A stretch of 33,070 nt of DNA from Candidatus Daviesbacteria bacterium (GTDB lineage: Bacteria; Patescibacteriota; Microgenomatia; Daviesbacterales; UBA10151): contig JACPEY010000058.1 in assembly GCA_016183245.1 (NCBI GenBank), positions 1 through 33,070 of the forward strand. The letters are read 5' to 3'. Position 1 is the first letter of the stretch. Each line of letters begins with the position of its first letter. Below are positions 3,960-18,447 of this stretch, piece by piece. The notes beneath the pieces are model-generated. The model saw only the letters and a program-made list of their open reading frames with translations, was not told where the DNA came from and did not search any database. A program made the position numbers and the translations under genes.

Positions 3960-3987
3960 TTGACAAGCTAAATTTTTGTGATATACT
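3960..3987 (+). promoter_or_regulatory. Promoter for the his operon: TTGACA-N16-TATACT with TGN extended -10
   Basis: TTGACA at 3960-3965, TATACT at 3982-3987, TGA immediately before the -10. Confidence 0.8.
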
Positions 3988-3993
3988 GTTATT

Positions 3994-4181
3994 ATAATTA
4001 AATAACCAAAAGCGTTACCAGTGAAGTCACGATTCACGAGCTGTCCCGCAAAAACGGGACCAGAAGTTGAACTGTAAAATCCAACAGACGATGTCACGAT
4101 TACCGTAGAGTCGCCACTAAGAGCCACGTACCAGCAATGGTACATGGAACAAAGGATGGGACCGCGGGAGCGGTCTTTTTT
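3994..4181 (+). ncRNA. T-box-like leader RNA upstream of the histidine operon
   Basis: AGGATGGGACCGCG at 4153-4166 matches the T-box core AGGGUGGNACCGCG. It is preceded by hairpins GTCCCG-CAAAAA-CGGGAC (4043-4060) and GTACCA-GCAA-TGGTAC (4128-4143), and overlaps a terminator. UGGG bulge fits the C73 discriminator of tRNA-His. Start is the approximate TSS. Confidence 0.75.
4160..4181 (+). terminator. Intrinsic terminator of the T-box leader (GACCGC GGGA GCGGTC TTTTTT)
   Basis: 6-bp GC-rich stem with 4-nt loop and six T residues. Its 5' arm overlaps the T-box core, as expected for mutually exclusive antiterminator/terminator folds. Confidence 0.85.
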
Positions 4182-4226
4182 AATGGACTGATCGCTGGTA
4201 GTAACGGAGGTTTCTAAAACAAAAAT

Positions 4227-5105
4227 ATGGCAAATTTAAATGAAAAAAATATTAAATTAGCGATACAAAAAGAAGGGCGTTTAACTGAAGAGACGCTTGA
4301 GTTTTTGCGAAAAAGTGGTTTTGAATTTGAAAGCTACAAACAAAGGTTGTTTTCTTTATGCAGAAATTTCCCTATGGAGATCCTATATGTCAGAGATGAC
4401 GATATCCCTGATTATGTCGCTTCCGGCATAGTAGACCTAGGTATTTTAGGCCAGAATATATTGAATGAAGAAAGACCAAATGTTAAAAAACTACTTAACT
4501 TAAGGTATGGCTTTTGTTCTTTAATTGTAGCTGTCCCCAAGGAATCCGGCATTAAAGATATTCAAGACTTAAAAGGTAAAACTATTGCCACATCTTATCC
4601 TCAATCTGCAAAGAAGTTTTTCAAGGAAAACAATATTACGATTGATATAGTCGAAATTAGCGGGTCAGTTGAGATTACTCCAGCACTGGGAGTAGCTCAA
4701 GCTATAGTCGATTTGGTTTCCACAGGCAGCACCTTGGCTTTAAATGATTTAAGAATTCTTACAAAAATTTATGATTCAGAAGCTGTATTCGTAGCAAATA
4801 AAAAAACCATAGCAAGTAACGAAAAGCAAATACTTCTACAAAAGCTGGTAATGCGATTTAAGGGTGTTCTATCTGCAAAAGATTATAAATATGTCATGAT
4901 GAACGCGCCTGAAAAGATTTTGCCGAAACTGAAAAAGATTGTGCCAGGTTTAAAGTCTCCCACCATCTCACCCTTGGCAAAATCCGGTTGGATTTCCATT
5001 CAAACAGTCATTAAAGAAGAAGTATTCTGGGAAACCATAGAAAGACTTAAACAAGCTGGAGCACAAGGAATAATAATTTTACCAATCGAAAAAATAATTA
5101 TATAA
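4227..5105 (+). CDS. hisG: ATP phosphoribosyltransferase (long form with C-terminal regulatory domain)
   Basis: IKLAIQKEGRLTEETLEFL, PDYVASGIVDLGILGQN, IVDLVSTGSTLALNDL; about 292 aa. Confidence 0.95.
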   Translation: MANLNEKNIKLAIQKEGRLTEETLEFLRKSGFEFESYKQRLFSLCRNFPMEILYVRDDDIPDYVASGIVDLGILGQNILNEERPNVKKLLNLRYGFCSLIVAVPKESGIKDIQDLKGKTIATSYPQSAKKFFKENNITIDIVEISGSVEITPALGVAQAIVDLVSTGSTLALNDLRILTKIYDSEAVFVANKKTIASNEKQILLQKLVMRFKGVLSAKDYKYVMMNAPEKILPKLKKIVPGLKSPTISPLAKSGWISIQTVIKEEVFWETIERLKQAGAQGIIILPIEKIII

Positions 5106-6402: not shown

Positions 6403-7962
6403 ATGACAAACTCAGCATTAAAAAGAATACAAAACATGAAACCATACAATCCACCTCTATCAGGACGGAGGGCATTTGGTGGTATGCTTTTGGATTTTAA
6501 TGAACGTACAATGCCGCCGTCATCAAAAGTACTAAAGGCTATTGCCGATTTTTTGAAATCAAATGAGTTACAGCTTTATCCTGAGTATGGTAAGCTGGAA
6601 AAGAAGTTGGCCCAATATGCAGGTGTAACTGAGGACCAGATTATGATAACAAACGGATCTGATCAGGCAATTGATCTTATTTTCCGTGCATTTACTGAAA
6701 CCAACGATACTGTTATAATTCCTTCCCCCAGCTTTGCAATGTTTTATCAATCCGCTCAAATAATCGGGAATAAAATACTGCGCCCTTTGTACAAAAAAGG
6801 GAGTTTATTATTTCCTTTAGAAGAATTATTAAAAATGATCAATAAATCAGTAAAACTTATTGTGATTTGTAATCCTAACAATCCTACGGGTACATTAGCG
6901 CCAATTGAAGATGTCAGAAAAATTGCACAAAAAGCCCGTAATGCCATTATCCTGGTAGATGAAGCATATTTTGAATTTTCGAAAGTTACAGTAATTTCAC
7001 TTATAAAAAAATATCCAAATATTATTATTACCCGTACTCTGTCAAAAGCTTTTGGTCTGCCGTCACTTCGACTAGGATACATTGTGGCTTCAAAAATCTA
7101 CATCAATGAACTTTTGAAAATGCGCGGCCCTTATGATGTAAATATGGTGGCTTTTACTGCTGCACTTGCCGCGCTTGATGATCGTAAAGAAATGCGCAAG
7201 TATGCAAGTGAAGTTATGAATCAGGCAAAACCCATGATTGAAGAGTTTTTTACCAAAAATGGCATAACCTTCTATCAATCTGCCGGCAACTTTCTGCTGT
7301 ATAAACCACTTCTAAAACAAGAAGAAAAAATATTAAGAGACAATGGTATTTTAGTACGGCCTCAAAATAAGACAAACATAGAAAAAACACTCCGCATCAG
7401 CATTGGAACAGTTAACCAGATGAAACAGTTTATCAAAGTTTACAAAAACGTAATATTAAGCAAAACTCAACCAAAAAAATACGCATTTATAGACAGGGAC
7501 GGAACCTTAATTTTTGAGCCGCAGGATACATTCCAAATTGACAGTATCAAGAAATTAAAGATTTTAGATGGGGTGATTACAGGCCTTAAAACACTAGTTG
7601 AGAAAAGATATGAACTTATCATGGTGACTAACCAGAACGGCTTGGGTACTGCCTCATTTCCCTGGCCTAATTTCCAGGCACCGCAGAACAAAATGCTCAG
7701 TATCTTTGAGAAAAACGGTATTAAGTTTAAAAAAATTTATATCTGCCCGCACCTACCAGTCAAAAACTGCAGTTGCAGAAAACCCAAAGTCGGCCTAGTT
7801 AAAAAATTCCTGAAGGAAAATCTGATTGATCAAGAACAGTCTTTTTTCTGCGGTGACAAAACAACTGATAGGCTTTTCGCTGAAAATATCGGCATTAAAT
7901 ATATTCCCATGCAAACTAATGGTGATTTTTACCAGATACTGACAGAAGGAGGAATCTTATGA
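6403..7962 (+). CDS. Fusion: histidinol-phosphate aminotransferase (HisC) + histidinol-phosphatase (HisB N-type HAD domain)
   Basis: N-terminus HisC (LDFNERTMPPS, NPNNPTGTLAP, TRTLSKAFGLPSLRLGY). C-terminus KKYAFIDRDGTLIFEP...VTNQNGLGTASFP...CPHLPVKNCSCRKPK, resembling E. coli HisB-N. Confidence 0.93.
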   Translation: MTNSALKRIQNMKPYNPPLSGRRAFGGMLLDFNERTMPPSSKVLKAIADFLKSNELQLYPEYGKLEKKLAQYAGVTEDQIMITNGSDQAIDLIFRAFTETNDTVIIPSPSFAMFYQSAQIIGNKILRPLYKKGSLLFPLEELLKMINKSVKLIVICNPNNPTGTLAPIEDVRKIAQKARNAIILVDEAYFEFSKVTVISLIKKYPNIIITRTLSKAFGLPSLRLGYIVASKIYINELLKMRGPYDVNMVAFTAALAALDDRKEMRKYASEVMNQAKPMIEEFFTKNGITFYQSAGNFLLYKPLLKQEEKILRDNGILVRPQNKTNIEKTLRISIGTVNQMKQFIKVYKNVILSKTQPKKYAFIDRDGTLIFEPQDTFQIDSIKKLKILDGVITGLKTLVEKRYELIMVTNQNGLGTASFPWPNFQAPQNKMLSIFEKNGIKFKKIYICPHLPVKNCSCRKPKVGLVKKFLKENLIDQEQSFFCGDKTTDRLFAENIGIKYIPMQTNGDFYQILTEGGIL

Positions 7963-11338: not shown

Positions 11339-12592
11339 ATGATTATGAAAAATATAGAACCAAAAACTTTAAAAGGATTTCGAGACTTCCTGCCTGCAGA
11401 AGCCAGGAAGCGGCAGTATGTAATAAATAAACTAAAAGGCGTTTTTGAGTCTTTTGGTTTTGAGCCTTTGGAAACTCCTGCTTTGGAGTACGAAGAAGTA
11501 CTTTTGGGCAAATACGGCGAAGAAGGCGATAAATTAATGTACCGTTTTACTGACAACGGCGGCCGCAAAGTGGCTTTAAGATACGACCAGACTGTCCCCC
11601 TAGCCCGCGTGGCGGCTCAGTACCAGAATCAGTTACCCGTTCCATTTAAAAGATATCAAATTCAACCTGTGTGGCGGGCTGAAAATACCCAAAAGGGGCG
11701 GTTTAGGGAATTTCTGCAGTGTGATATTGATACTGTTGGTTTATCCTCTCCCTTGTCTGATGCAGAAGTCATTGCTACTGTAGCCAAATCTTTAGAACAA
11801 CTGGGCTTTATAAATTACAAAATTATAATTAATGACCGGGAGATTTTTTCCAATATGATCAAACAGGGTGTTTTTAGTGACGGGAGTATGCAGACAATTT
11901 TACGGGCCATGGATAAACTTAAAAAAGTAGGCCGGGAAGCAGTTTTGGACGAGATGATCAAAAAAGGCCTATCTTCTGAAAAAGCTACCTATGCTTTACA
12001 AACCATTGAAGGTTTGCAGCCCACTCAAAGAATTCAGGAAATTTTTGAGCTTTTGTCCAATATAGGTATTCCTGAAGGCCAATATGAATTTTCCCCCAGT
12101 TTAGCCAGGGGCTTGGATTATTACACTGGCTTAATCTTTGAAGTTGAAGTTGAAGAATATAGTGCCGGATCCGTTGCCGGTGGCGGCCGTTACGATAAAC
12201 TAATCGGCATGTTTGCCGGGAAAGATATCCCGGCAGTAGGTGTGGCTTTTGGATTTGACAGGATTATGGAAGCCATGGACCAATTAAAGCTATTTCCCGC
12301 TAATTTAACTACCACCAAAGTCCTGGTAACAGTATTTTCAAAAGAATTAGAATCAGAATCTATTAAGGCAACTTCCCTCTTGCGCTCGAACAATATAAAT
12401 TGCGAACTCTGGCTGGATCCTGAAGCTAAACTGGATAAACAATTAAAGTACGCTGACCAAAAAGGCATCCCATACGCTGTTATCATAGGTCCTGATGAAG
12501 CTTCCAAAGGAACCACTACTTTAAAAGACCTGGAAAGTAAAACCCAGGAAACCTTTCCTCTTGACGAACTTGCATCTAAACTGACATCATAA
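11339..12592 (+). CDS. hisS: Histidyl-tRNA synthetase
   Basis: GFRDFLPAEARKRQYV, RYDQTVPLARVAA, GLDYYTGLIFEVE, GGGRYDKLI. Confidence 0.96.
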   Translation: MIMKNIEPKTLKGFRDFLPAEARKRQYVINKLKGVFESFGFEPLETPALEYEEVLLGKYGEEGDKLMYRFTDNGGRKVALRYDQTVPLARVAAQYQNQLPVPFKRYQIQPVWRAENTQKGRFREFLQCDIDTVGLSSPLSDAEVIATVAKSLEQLGFINYKIIINDREIFSNMIKQGVFSDGSMQTILRAMDKLKKVGREAVLDEMIKKGLSSEKATYALQTIEGLQPTQRIQEIFELLSNIGIPEGQYEFSPSLARGLDYYTGLIFEVEVEEYSAGSVAGGGRYDKLIGMFAGKDIPAVGVAFGFDRIMEAMDQLKLFPANLTTTKVLVTVFSKELESESIKATSLLRSNNINCELWLDPEAKLDKQLKYADQKGIPYAVIIGPDEASKGTTTLKDLESKTQETFPLDELASKLTS

Positions 12593-13641: not shown

Positions 13642-16600
13642 CTAGTGAATTATTCTAGCTGTGTAAATCTTGTTAGTAATATTGTAACCATTAAAATCAA
13701 AGTCTGGGCTTACCGGCTCTGGTTCTTTATCATGCACATAATTATTAATAACATAGCTGGTAATAGAAGAATAATTGGAAATGGTTCCGGCTGTTCCCGC
13801 CACCAACACTTTCTTTTTTCCTCTTATTTCCGCTACATCAGCAAATTTATCCAATAAGCTTTCTGTAAATTTACTAATATCAATTTCTCCCTCCTTCGGA
13901 ATATCCAAAGCTCTCACCAATAAAGCTTCTTCTCCTTTGGCGGTTTGCACCTCAAAAATCAATACTGAACCTACGAATCTGGAATCACCACTTTCTAAAC
14001 CGGTAATAAACTTGTACGGTATAACCAATGGATGTCGGGATTCTGATCCCGAATATGTTTGCAGCAAATTAGGCACTCGGGTATAACAAACATCAGCCAA
14101 ATAACCTGCCATTTCACCCACCAGCCCACGGTCCGGAATAATCTTAACTTCAGCAACCTGCCCTGTCTGGGTTTTGATAAAACGGGCTTGTTCCTGCCTT
14201 AATTTCTCTGCGTGCGGATTAAACCGCTCTGTAATTCTACGAAAATTTTTTCTTAAGCCGTCATTTTTGATGATTGTCTCCACAATTTCCGGCCGCCAAT
14301 ATTTTTCCTGACCACTTTGATCCAAACTTAAAACGTGGTTTTTAATCATTTCATCAACTGTTAAAACAATTTCATTGATTCCTTCAGCAGTAACACCTTC
14401 TTGGGATAATTTGATTCTGACATTTTCCAAAAACTCGGGAGACCTGTTGTCTCGTTGATACAGCTTGGATAAAATGATTCTTCTCATTACCGAATCTATT
14501 CCAGCAAAACCTTCTCCTCCGCTGCGGTCTTCATTACTGAAATTCATGTTCAGCAGGGCCAAAGTTAACGAGTCTAGATCAGAAACTTTATCAAGGTGCT
14601 CTAAATAAGAATGAAGGTCGGTCATTTGTCTCGACATAGCAGCTACGGCTTTCTCGTTATTCATTCGGCCAAGAGCTTTACGGATAATATCGGCTCGCCT
14701 ATCAATAACTGCTTTTACAGACGTCTTTAGTTGATCTACCGAATGAGGTTGATCAATACACTCCAGAATTTCTCTTCTTAACACATTGTAGTCACCCTGA
14801 ACCGCTTCTGCGTTAAACTCTATCATTACACTAGATGCCGTGACGGTTTCGGTTCCGTATCCCCTAGGAAGAGAAGGAATTGTTCCTCTTTCTAACCCAA
14901 CAGCAAATTCGCTAATTTTGCTTGTTAGACTTTCTGTGGTTCCAGATCCAAAACGAGCAGTATCAAATCCGGTCACATTGGCTAACATTTGTATTTGAAA
15001 AGGGGTTAGATTACGCAATTGCTCTGGGCTTGTTAATTGTTCTTCTCCGAAAACCATTTTTTTTATCTCAGATAGCCTTTGCACCATCTCCGCAGTAGAA
15101 GTAAGTCTCAAATTCTTCATCTCTTCCGGTAAATCCGCAATTTTCTGATGCTCAAAAAGGTATAACCAGCGATAATATCGGTAGATAGTTTCATTTCTAG
15201 CTAAACCAAAGTTATGAATATAATCCGTGGCTATTGCAAATTCGAGTGGATCTAAACGAAATTGATCTTTTGGTAAATAACTTTTTAGATAAGTGATAAA
15301 TTTGGAAGTTCTATCAAAATCATTTCCACTAAAAGCATTACGCGCTTCGTCAGTAGATTTTGGTAAAACTGCTAAAAATCTATCAAATACTTCCTTACCT
15401 AATCCCATCCGCCAGAAATTTTGGTATTGTCTAGGTGTTAAATCAGGTCTTCTCTTAGGTAAATCAAGCATTGCATATGGTACTTCCTGCATTAATTTTT
15501 GATAAAAAAGTGGTGTTTCCTGATTATCTACTACCATCTCTATAAACTGATCCCTATTTCTCAATAAAAATTCAGCTACAGAAGCATTTTGTGAATTTTG
15601 TGAATAATAGCGCCAAAAAGTTTGATCTGCTGCAGGTATTTCTACCCAATCAATTTGCGCTAAAATTTGGCCAATTAATACTTGTTTGTTTGCATTATCT
15701 TTACTATTATTACCTAACATTGCTGCTTCATTTAAAAAAGCCAAAGTTGGCCGATCATTTTCAATAAATTCGGCGAAACGGTTCTTATCTACAAGTAATG
15801 CATCCCGAATAGCATAAGTTCTTTCACGATCAACTTTAAGAAAAAATTCCCAAAAAGCTCTTTCTTGCACTGGCAATTTATCCATATCAATCAGAGCAAG
15901 CACCTCACGAATCATCGGCAAAGATGATTCATTTTGTCGAGTAGCATACCCTAAGAAAACTTCTGTAGGTTTTCCGTCAACTACAAACCTTAATTTATTA
16001 AAATTATCTAAGCTGAGCGGTGAAGACAAAATACAATCCAAAAGATTCTTTCGTATCGCCGAACTGGAAGGAATACTTTTGAAAAACTCCCAAACTAGCC
16101 GCTCGTCAGCAGAATAACCGTTTAAATCTGTAACTGACAATAATTTATCAATTTCCCCCTGATTGCCATTTTTTGCTACCATCAGCAACAGATCCGAAGT
16201 TGGTACGCCCTCAGCAAAATAATTTTTATACTCTGCTATATTCTTGTGTCTCATCAGTCCCGTTACTTCCAAAGGTAGACTTAAACACGCCTTGCAAAAC
16301 TGCTGCTGTTCGGGAGTAAAGGCGGCAATTACCTCATTAGTAAAAAGAGATCTTGCTTGGGAGAAAAAACCAATATGTAAAGCATTTTCAAAAAAAGCAA
16401 CAGTCGGTCGGCCATTATTGATAAAAGAGGCGATCTCGAAAAGACCCAAAGCAGCCATTTGTTGTTGCAAATTTTCTGGCAGGGTTCTGAAAAAAGCTAA
16501 TTTGGATTGATCCTCCTTTGAAAGCGTAGCTAAAAACTCTCCTGGTAAATTAACCAAGGCAGCCACTCTAATATCTTGCTTCAGTTGGTGAAAATAGGTA

Positions 16601-18414
16601 AGCTTCAAATAAGGATCCAACTTATCCTGATTATGACATTTCGAAACAAATTCCTGCATCAACCAATCTCCCACCGGTACTCCCTCACTAATAAGTTTAT
16701 TAAGCATCATAGCATTCGGCGCGAGACCGCCGACATCATCGAACATTTCATCAGCAATTTCATCTCTATGAGTAGCTAAATATGAATAGAATTGTAATCG
16801 GTCAGGCAATATGCTAGACGCATGTTTCGCAGGCTCTAAATGATCTATTAAATTCAAAACAAATCCGGTTGCAAATTGAAGAGGAACAGCAGGTATTTCT
16901 CCTCTGTTTACTTTTGACCTTAAATCCTGCACATAATTGATTATTTTTCCCTTGCTCAATCCTACCTCACCGTTTTCCCATATTAAAAAATCTCCTGGTT
17001 TGAAGCCCTCAGTTTTAGGCAGTGAATTTAAAATTATTGCAATATCAGCCAAAGTTTCTTTATTTTTGTATAATTCTTCATAAAAAGGCACTGCTGCGGC
17101 ATGTAAAATCTTAGTTCCGTAATAATATTCTTCAAAAGCCTTGGCCCAGGCAACTCTTTCCGGATCAGCCTGAAAGGAAAGAATTTGACTAAATGTTTTC
17201 TCTATTTCTCCATACAGCTTAGTAATATCTTCAAAATGATAACCCATCCCCTCAAACGCCTTGTAGATACCGCGACAATCCCAACCAGCATTAATTAAAG
17301 CATTAAGCTGAGGTAGCTTACCACTGGAATCAAGGTATCGTATACCTGTGGTAAAATCCCTACCACCGCAAGCTAATTTTTCTCCATATAAAGGCGACTT
17401 ACCTGCAGCTTGCGCTTTCCTTTCTGGCAGGACATTAGTAGCAGCCCAATCAACTAGATAGGGATAATATTTTTCCAGTTGTTGACCAATTGCAGGATTA
17501 AGCAAATCATTGTATTCTAACCAATATTCATAATTACCACCATGATCGTAACTACCCTTTGGACGCTCTTTTCTAAAGGGCAAAACCTCTGCAAACATTT
17601 GCCAAATAACAGCTTTGTTGAAGGCTTCCTGCTGATTGAGAGTTAAGCCTCCTTGTTTCATTATCTGCAGCAAACCATTCTGTTCAGATTTGCCAATTCC
17701 ACTACAGAAAGAGTCATTACCATATAGAACCTGCGTCCTCCCGTCAAATTGGTGGTAAATTTTTTTAAAAGTTTCTTCCTGCATATTACCTAAAACTGCA
17801 ATCATTTCAGCAAGTTCATCAGGATAATCTCGGAACTCATAGCTTCTTGGTACAATATAAAGTTGGTGTCCCCGCTGAATGGCCAATTTAAATTTTTTTA
17901 TAGCCTCAGACTCATTCTGATCTAGGGATTTCACTAAACGGGATAAAACTTCTGGTTTAAAATCCCTTCTCTTATATATCAGAATATTCGCCTCAATTAC
18001 CTGTAACAGCTCCCCGCTTTGCTTAACCCCTGCCCAGCTAAGGCGTTTTTTCATATACTCGCGCCAAAGTCTCGTTGGCAACCTCTGATCAGCTAGTTGT
18101 CTCTGTATTTCTTCATTCTTATAATCCAACGTTACCTTTCCGCTATGAAACTGATCGCGAGCAATATTTGCTGTTTGTCCAATTACATAATCCCTGAGCT
18201 GTTTTTCTTTCCTTTGAAAATCTGCTTGAGAAGATATAGAAGTTTCTTCCGACATTCCAAGCTTTTGTCGAAATTCCAAAGGAGTTTTATGGCGGTCAAA
18301 TCCCCTAATCTGCGGTGGTTCTAATTTAAAAGGAGCTTCTACTTTTTCAAGGGGCCTTACAGCTTCTCTTTTTTCAGCACCCACATGTTCCAAAACCGCA
18401 GCTTCATTACCCAT
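13642..18414 (-). CDS. Giant uncharacterised cytoplasmic protein (about 1590 aa) with internal alpha-helical repeats
   Basis: Single ORF of 1599 codons, no signal peptide or obvious TM. Start at MGNEAAVLEHV chosen because GGAAA precedes it (the longer ORF starts at 18441). Confidence 0.75.
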   Translation of the reverse strand: MGNEAAVLEHVGAEKREAVRPLEKVEAPFKLEPPQIRGFDRHKTPLEFRQKLGMSEETSISSQADFQRKEKQLRDYVIGQTANIARDQFHSGKVTLDYKNEEIQRQLADQRLPTRLWREYMKKRLSWAGVKQSGELLQVIEANILIYKRRDFKPEVLSRLVKSLDQNESEAIKKFKLAIQRGHQLYIVPRSYEFRDYPDELAEMIAVLGNMQEETFKKIYHQFDGRTQVLYGNDSFCSGIGKSEQNGLLQIMKQGGLTLNQQEAFNKAVIWQMFAEVLPFRKERPKGSYDHGGNYEYWLEYNDLLNPAIGQQLEKYYPYLVDWAATNVLPERKAQAAGKSPLYGEKLACGGRDFTTGIRYLDSSGKLPQLNALINAGWDCRGIYKAFEGMGYHFEDITKLYGEIEKTFSQILSFQADPERVAWAKAFEEYYYGTKILHAAAVPFYEELYKNKETLADIAIILNSLPKTEGFKPGDFLIWENGEVGLSKGKIINYVQDLRSKVNRGEIPAVPLQFATGFVLNLIDHLEPAKHASSILPDRLQFYSYLATHRDEIADEMFDDVGGLAPNAMMLNKLISEGVPVGDWLMQEFVSKCHNQDKLDPYLKLTYFHQLKQDIRVAALVNLPGEFLATLSKEDQSKLAFFRTLPENLQQQMAALGLFEIASFINNGRPTVAFFENALHIGFFSQARSLFTNEVIAAFTPEQQQFCKACLSLPLEVTGLMRHKNIAEYKNYFAEGVPTSDLLLMVAKNGNQGEIDKLLSVTDLNGYSADERLVWEFFKSIPSSSAIRKNLLDCILSSPLSLDNFNKLRFVVDGKPTEVFLGYATRQNESSLPMIREVLALIDMDKLPVQERAFWEFFLKVDRERTYAIRDALLVDKNRFAEFIENDRPTLAFLNEAAMLGNNSKDNANKQVLIGQILAQIDWVEIPAADQTFWRYYSQNSQNASVAEFLLRNRDQFIEMVVDNQETPLFYQKLMQEVPYAMLDLPKRRPDLTPRQYQNFWRMGLGKEVFDRFLAVLPKSTDEARNAFSGNDFDRTSKFITYLKSYLPKDQFRLDPLEFAIATDYIHNFGLARNETIYRYYRWLYLFEHQKIADLPEEMKNLRLTSTAEMVQRLSEIKKMVFGEEQLTSPEQLRNLTPFQIQMLANVTGFDTARFGSGTTESLTSKISEFAVGLERGTIPSLPRGYGTETVTASSVMIEFNAEAVQGDYNVLRREILECIDQPHSVDQLKTSVKAVIDRRADIIRKALGRMNNEKAVAAMSRQMTDLHSYLEHLDKVSDLDSLTLALLNMNFSNEDRSGGEGFAGIDSVMRRIILSKLYQRDNRSPEFLENVRIKLSQEGVTAEGINEIVLTVDEMIKNHVLSLDQSGQEKYWRPEIVETIIKNDGLRKNFRRITERFNPHAEKLRQEQARFIKTQTGQVAEVKIIPDRGLVGEMAGYLADVCYTRVPNLLQTYSGSESRHPLVIPYKFITGLESGDSRFVGSVLIFEVQTAKGEEALLVRALDIPKEGEIDISKFTESLLDKFADVAEIRGKKKVLVAGTAGTISNYSSITSYVINNYVHDKEPEPVSPDFDFNGYNITNKIYTARIIH

Positions 18415-18447
18415 ATTATTTCCAGAATAACATAAATTCAAACCACT

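Follow-up and report, generated by a model that had tools for sequence, protein, structure and literature searches.

T-box riboswitches are usually described as regulators of Gram-positive bacteria. According to a review, T-boxes acting on transcription generally need a long Stem I with an IDTM, and the short-stem T-boxes known from Actinobacteria control translation (PMC7583486). The class III T-box of Nocardia farcinica ileS combines a short Stem I with a specifier in the apical loop (PMC10482949). T-boxes specific for tRNA-His that have his genes as targets have been described in Firmicutes and Actinobacteria (PMC9413887). A search of the open-access literature revealed no paper linking T-box riboswitches with Patescibacteria, CPR or Saccharibacteria nor, among the papers listed, with Parcubacteria or Microgenomates. 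The leader analyzed here precedes the histidine biosynthesis operon of a Candidatus Daviesbacteria genome and lies on a stretch of 33,070 nucleotides, the whole of which is called the window. Judged from its sequence, it is very probably a transcriptional tRNA-His T-box riboswitch with an ultrashort Stem I.

The leader is preceded by a sigma-70-type promoter with 11 of 12 consensus matches, consisting of TTGACA (3960-3965), a 16-nt spacer and a TG-extended TATACT (3982-3987). A promoter of the same type precedes the sibling argF leader. Stem I through T-box core extends from position 4007 to 4167. Stem I itself is a 32-nt hairpin (4011-4042), too small for a double T-loop/IDTM, and is composed of a 3-bp base helix (AGC/GCU, 4011-4013/4040-4042), a K-turn-like internal loop and the helix GUGA/UCAC (4021-4024/4034-4037). 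Its apical loop AGUCACGAU contains the His codon CAC (4028-4030) as specifier; at the equivalent loop position, the argF and proS leaders of the same genome carry CGC and CCC. In many relatives, the base helix and the conserved A14/A33 columns are compatible with a basal K-turn in Stem I, while the G-A pairs of the window are off consensus (CA instead of GA). Stem II (4044-4059) is a short, perfect hairpin of 5 bp (UCCCG-CAAAAA-CGGGA) with a conserved A-rich loop, in which no S-turn sequence was seen by eye. It is followed by the Stem IIA/B pseudoknot (4061-4085), made up of CAG/CUG (4061-4063/4072-4074) and GUUG/CAAC (4066-4069/4082-4085) with the F-box-like string CUGUAAAA, and by an extra helix (4089-4113; CGAU/GUCG plus conserved U-G and G-A mismatches) in the interval to Stem III, which was identified by covariation and conserved columns. 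The purine string AAGAG (4119-4123) leads into the Stem III hairpin (4124-4147), containing the second perfect hairpin of the leader (GUACCA/UGGUAC, 4128-4143). The T-box core AAAGGAUGGGACCGCG occupies positions 4151 to 4166, and the terminator T1 (GACCGC-GGGA-GCGGUC-UUUUUU, 4160-4181) begins inside the T-box bulge, the bases G4160 to C4165 being common to both elements. Comparison with relatives suggests that AACGGAGGUUU (4203-4213) is probably a leftover of the 3' arm of a second terminator, T2, whose 5' arm (CCUCUCGUUCCUU in relatives) is missing in the window.

On the plus strand, hisG (4227-5105) opens a complete his operon in which NCBIfam models identified hisG, hisD, a hisC-hisB(N) fusion, hisB, hisH, hisA, hisF, hisI and hisE, followed by hisS (11339-12592). 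In the fusion gene (6403-7962), the histidinol-phosphate aminotransferase (hisC) is joined to the histidinol-phosphatase domain of hisB. Farther downstream, the minus strand contains a very long ORF of 1599 aa (13642-18441) without an assigned function. The promoter, the two hairpins, the core and the terminator sharing bases with it, from which the original prediction had concluded that a T-box leader is present, were all located, and hisG is indeed the next gene. That prediction did not include the CAC specifier and its apical location, the IIA/B pseudoknot or the sibling T-boxes in the genome.

Relatives were sought with a gapped His-leader pattern in 257 Gb of GTDB species genomes, and 36 loci were obtained. 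The resulting 37 leaders, including that of the window, were aligned by plain MAFFT. The letters of the specifier loop, of the F-box-like string (CYGUWMAA) and of the T-box core were set by the search pattern and their invariance is not evidence, but the opposite strands of the helices were free to vary. In this alignment, 87.9% of the cells of the proposed structure were paired, compared to 67.4% in shuffles, and two-sided changes occurred at 27 of 34 pairs. The covariation score of 0.574 (shuffled: 0.194) was reached by none of 500 shuffles, and slid partners gave at most 0.196. The specifier hairpin was paired in all 37 leaders with two-sided changes at 4/4 pairs, and the Stem I base helix was 87% paired. 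Stem II (92% paired) showed such changes at 5/5 pairs, Stem III (77%) at 6/6 pairs; IIA and IIB were paired to 97% and 88%, the latter with compensatory two-sided changes. The structure was taken from this covariation, the lone minimum-energy fold of the window mispairing the IIA/B region. A pairing of CCGU with GCGG of the T-box core proposed by RNAalifold was dropped, since both strands are near invariant and do not covary.

Only one tRNA-His was detected in the genome. It has the anticodon GUG, G-1, C73 and an encoded CCA, and UGGG of the window (4157-4160) is complementary to its CCCA end, which bears out the original prediction of C73 from the bulge. The same rule connecting UGGN with N73 holds for the two siblings: the argF leader, with CGC in the apical loop, has a UGGC bulge and the tRNA-Arg(GCG) of the genome G73; the proS leader, with CCC in the loop, has UGGU and tRNA-Pro(GGG) A73. 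For tRNA-Arg(GCG) of other genomes, the combinations UGGC/G73 (G020) and UGGU/A73 (G644) as well as one G-U wobble (G721) were found. The anatomy, the covarying helices and the agreement of codon, gene and N73 can thus be read from the sequences, and the histidine specificity originally proposed for this CPR leader is borne out by the CAC specifier, UGGG/C73, the his operon, the pseudoknot and covariation. Between the Arg T-box and argF, the first gene of the sibling locus (L002:1761-1979) encodes a 73-aa protein without an NCBIfam match.

The nearest known type is the class III T-box of N. farcinica ileS (PMC10482949). With it, the leader shares a short Stem I that lacks the IDTM for binding the tRNA elbow, the apical specifier, and also the order of elements: Stem II follows directly, then the IIA/B pseudoknot, Stem III and the UGGN bulge. 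By contrast, the described class III T-box is an actinobacterial, translational ileS leader, while the patescibacterial leaders cover at least eight amino acids and are mostly transcriptional. Its loop comprises 5-6 nt (7-9 nt in the patescibacterial leaders) and its Stem II has an S-turn, whereas Stem II of the patescibacterial leaders is short, carries an A-rich loop and shows no clear S-turn. Moreover, they possess the extra helix ahead of Stem III. A translational output does not match the intrinsic terminator of the window, though a few relatives look translational. Class I T-boxes like B. subtilis tyrS (RF00230) resemble the leader in the logic of specifier/anticodon and UGGN/NCCA pairing, in the F-box pseudoknot, in the purines at Stem III and, as seen in relatives, in the competition of an antiterminator with a terminator (T2). 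They differ by the long Stem I and the IDTM, and RF00230 gives the window no score. In addition, T1 of the His leaders includes the bulge itself. With the T-boxes for histidine known from Firmicutes and Actinobacteria (PMC9413887), the leaders have in common the tRNA-His specificity and the his genes as targets, but phylum and Stem I are different and the targets in Patescibacteria additionally comprise tRNA-His and histidine racemase-like genes.

The arrangement of terminators was compared among the 36 leaders with enough downstream sequence, the window included. T1 is present in 32 of them, and 34 have CCUCUCGUUCCUU or a similar sequence as 5' arm of T2; this arm is missing in the window and L161. 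A stronger T1 (GACCGC-GGGA-GCGGUC-U6; GAGCGGUC-U6) is shared by the window and L161, which is without T2, and it recurs in L223 and in L148, where T2 is present. The L151 antiterminator, in which A1 is combined with A2 and a G-U pair stands at the A2 base, has a computed energy of -15.4 kcal/mol and leaves the bulge free. In the window, the computed values are -11 to -13 kcal/mol for T1 versus approximately 0 kcal/mol for a classical A1/A2 antiterminator. The 3' strand of the classical antiterminator is missing there, and T1 is the sole remaining terminator.

Tentative conclusions on tRNA binding, discrimination of charging and read-through can be drawn from these features. CAC in the apical loop would pair with the GUG anticodon of tRNA-His, the tRNA being held by Stem II and the IIA/B pseudoknot, and the CCCA end of uncharged tRNA-His would pair with UGGG. 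In most relatives, this pairing is expected to allow formation of the antiterminator (A1 AAGGA/UCCUU, A2 GCGGGAGG/CCUCUCGU), which would defeat both T2 and T1, the latter being built from the bulge itself. As neither T2 nor the 3' strand of the antiterminator has been retained in the window, tRNA binding presumably opposes T1 directly, without a classical antiterminator. With charged tRNA-His, T1 would fold and transcription stop; with uncharged tRNA-His, the bulge would be occupied and RNA polymerase could proceed into the his operon.

The losses in the window may also be explained by a T-box in decay, to which tRNA-His may still bind but whose T1 terminates regardless of charging, so that the his operon receives a constant low read-through. 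The missing T2 5' arm, the instability of the A1/A2 conformer and the weak K-turn pairs fit this explanation, but the sensing parts are intact, UGGG and all helices included, the strengthened T1 recurs in L161, L148 and L223, which suggests selection, and the his operon is complete. Decay is therefore rather unlikely and a simplified switch is favored over one that is losing its ON state, since sensing parts and operon have been kept. An even smaller probability is given to a translational T-box, in which the hairpin at 4160-4175 is no terminator and tRNA binding frees the ribosome-binding site of hisG. No clear terminator is seen in the relatives L063 and L153, the latter from a Saccharibacteria genome; judged by eye, the 3' strand of their antiterminator can pair with the Shine-Dalgarno region, which suggests that these are translational T-boxes. 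The window, however, has a 6-bp GC-rich hairpin followed by six U, and GGAGG (4206-4210) has no such pairing partner. A leader-peptide attenuator in the style of enterobacterial his operons would suit the location ahead of hisG and the terminator, but it was rejected as very improbable, since no leader ORF has consecutive His codons or encodes more than a single His and the conserved signal is RNA structure. Finally, a chance likeness to the T-box core, which by itself is just mildly unlikely within 1 Mb (one exact copy of the 13-base core in 1.08 Mb, which makes it weak evidence when taken alone), can be regarded as already refuted by the whole-leader match described below, the covariation and the agreement of codon, gene and N73.

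This match was obtained with the covariance model R3, built from 30 leaders of other genomes with the window left out. It detected positions 4007-4167 at 128.1 bits and E=6e-38, the E-value being rough due to a shortened calibration that does not affect bit scores; the next match in the window scored 3.8 bits. Since the training leader L151 (genome G020) stems from an orthologous his operon, the window sequence itself did not enter the test, but its family did. The Rfam T-box model RF00230, named in the original prediction as a check, gave a divided result: the window was not matched at the gathering cut-off nor at E<=10, but the genome's two sibling leaders, ahead of proS and argF, were, with 37.6 and 22.5 bits (cut-off 93). 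Other places in this genome matched RF00230 weakly (L003-L006, with E-values between 0.97 and 8.4), and L004, read directly, contained no leader. Weak matches of model R1, such as L072-L081, were also rejected; they lack UGGN and resemble coding sequence.

Of 380 genomes sampled from the phylum, 133 had an RF00230 match at E<=0.01, but only 13 had one above its cut-off. The same search was positive for five of 14 named control genomes (Bacillus, Lactococcus, Corynebacterium, Thermus, Deinobacterium), whose phyla are already known for T-boxes (PMC2494555). With R3 and a threshold of E<=0.001, 124 of the 374 genomes searched in the class gave a match. T-boxes are thus common in Patescibacteria, where the original prediction had called finding one notable. 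They occur in about one third of the genomes sampled from this uncultured phylum, about whose gene regulation very little is known. The window leader, which exhibits most of the T-box features tested, appears to work like a T-box of a short form that is common in the phylum and scores below the Rfam cut-off. Although transcriptional T-boxes have been held generally to need a long Stem I gripping the tRNA elbow, this much smaller form still seems to terminate transcription. Being small and natural, it lends itself to structural and kinetic studies of the way in which RNAs with a short Stem I bind tRNA in time.

All named loci among the 36 belong to Patescibacteria, namely to Microgenomates lineages (Gottesman-, Davies-, Ames-, Levy- and Blackburnbacteria), Saccharibacteria and Paceibacterota. 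In 25 of the 36, genes for histidine biosynthesis or hisS lie within 2.5 kb downstream, counting any blastp match to the His proteins of the window. In 11 loci (L149, L154, L156, L158, L159, L163, L165, L168, L172, L174 and L183), ARAGORN detected a tRNA-His(GUG) gene 74-187 nt downstream in the same direction, always with G-1 and C73; at some loci, the two groups overlap. The position upstream of tRNA-His genes suggests that the switch may control its own ligand, which would be an unusual feedback loop. At another locus, the first ~20 bases of tRNA-His are duplicated just 5' of an intact tRNA-His gene (L040:40-60 and 100-120). Among the remaining His loci are genes for histidine ammonia-lyase, for M20 and VanX-like peptidases, and for proteins that resemble histidine racemase but score below the NCBIfam cut-off. 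DapF-fold proteins encoded after His T-boxes gave sub-cut-off matches to the NCBIfam models for histidine racemase (L148:2029-2838; L163:5386-6204, minus strand) or were recognized by motif alone (L181). Since they follow His T-boxes, the specifier supports histidine as their substrate, and specifier codons may more generally predict substrates of unassigned CPR genes such as these racemase-like and peptidase genes. The hutH gene after a His T-box (L176:845-2359; histidine ammonia-lyase, above the NCBIfam cut-off) is puzzling, being a degradation enzyme under a starvation switch. In the His leaders L096 and L099, the codon (CAC or CAU) lies within an internal loop, which resembles the arrangement in forms with a longer Stem I.

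Models R2 and R3 also detected leaders of other specificities, whose specifier codons were taken from the hairpin loops by eye. Arg-type leaders with CGC precede argH, argG, argF and an N-acetyltransferase gene, Pro-type leaders with CCC precede proB-proA, ornithine cyclodeaminase and proS, and AUC and GUC were found ahead of ileS and valS, respectively. Specifier and bulge are UGG and UGGC ahead of trpS, ACC and UGGA ahead of thrS, and UGC and UGGA ahead of a cysteine synthase/CBS-type gene. In general, tRNA-Cys has U73 as discriminator. The tRNA-Thr of the window's genome has U73, in agreement with UGGA of the Thr leader. Another set of leaders (L106, L228, L231, L233, L235, L241, L244, L249 and L251) has the His 5' domain (Stem I, II, IIA/B) and a terminator ahead of hisS or tRNA-His-like genes but no UGGN core; these leaders appear to be T-box-like, without an acceptor-end sensor. 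The chances are about even that Patescibacteria have a T-box class of their own, characterized by an ultrashort Stem I, an apical specifier, an A-rich Stem II loop replacing the S-turn, and one additional helix ahead of Stem III; this class would serve at least eight amino acids and act mainly on transcription. Its His branch would have the bulge-containing T1 in addition and would often control the gene for its own ligand, tRNA-His. A further branch ahead of hisS or tRNA-His would have lost UGGN altogether. In the leader of the window, the 3' end of the tRNA would be in competition with the terminator, no classical antiterminator being involved. After Pro T-boxes (L046:1676-2029, minus strand, and L250), a gene was found for a small tRNA-binding-domain-like protein which by eye resembles the MetG C-terminal domain or CsaA; in the window's genome it is located ahead of proS.
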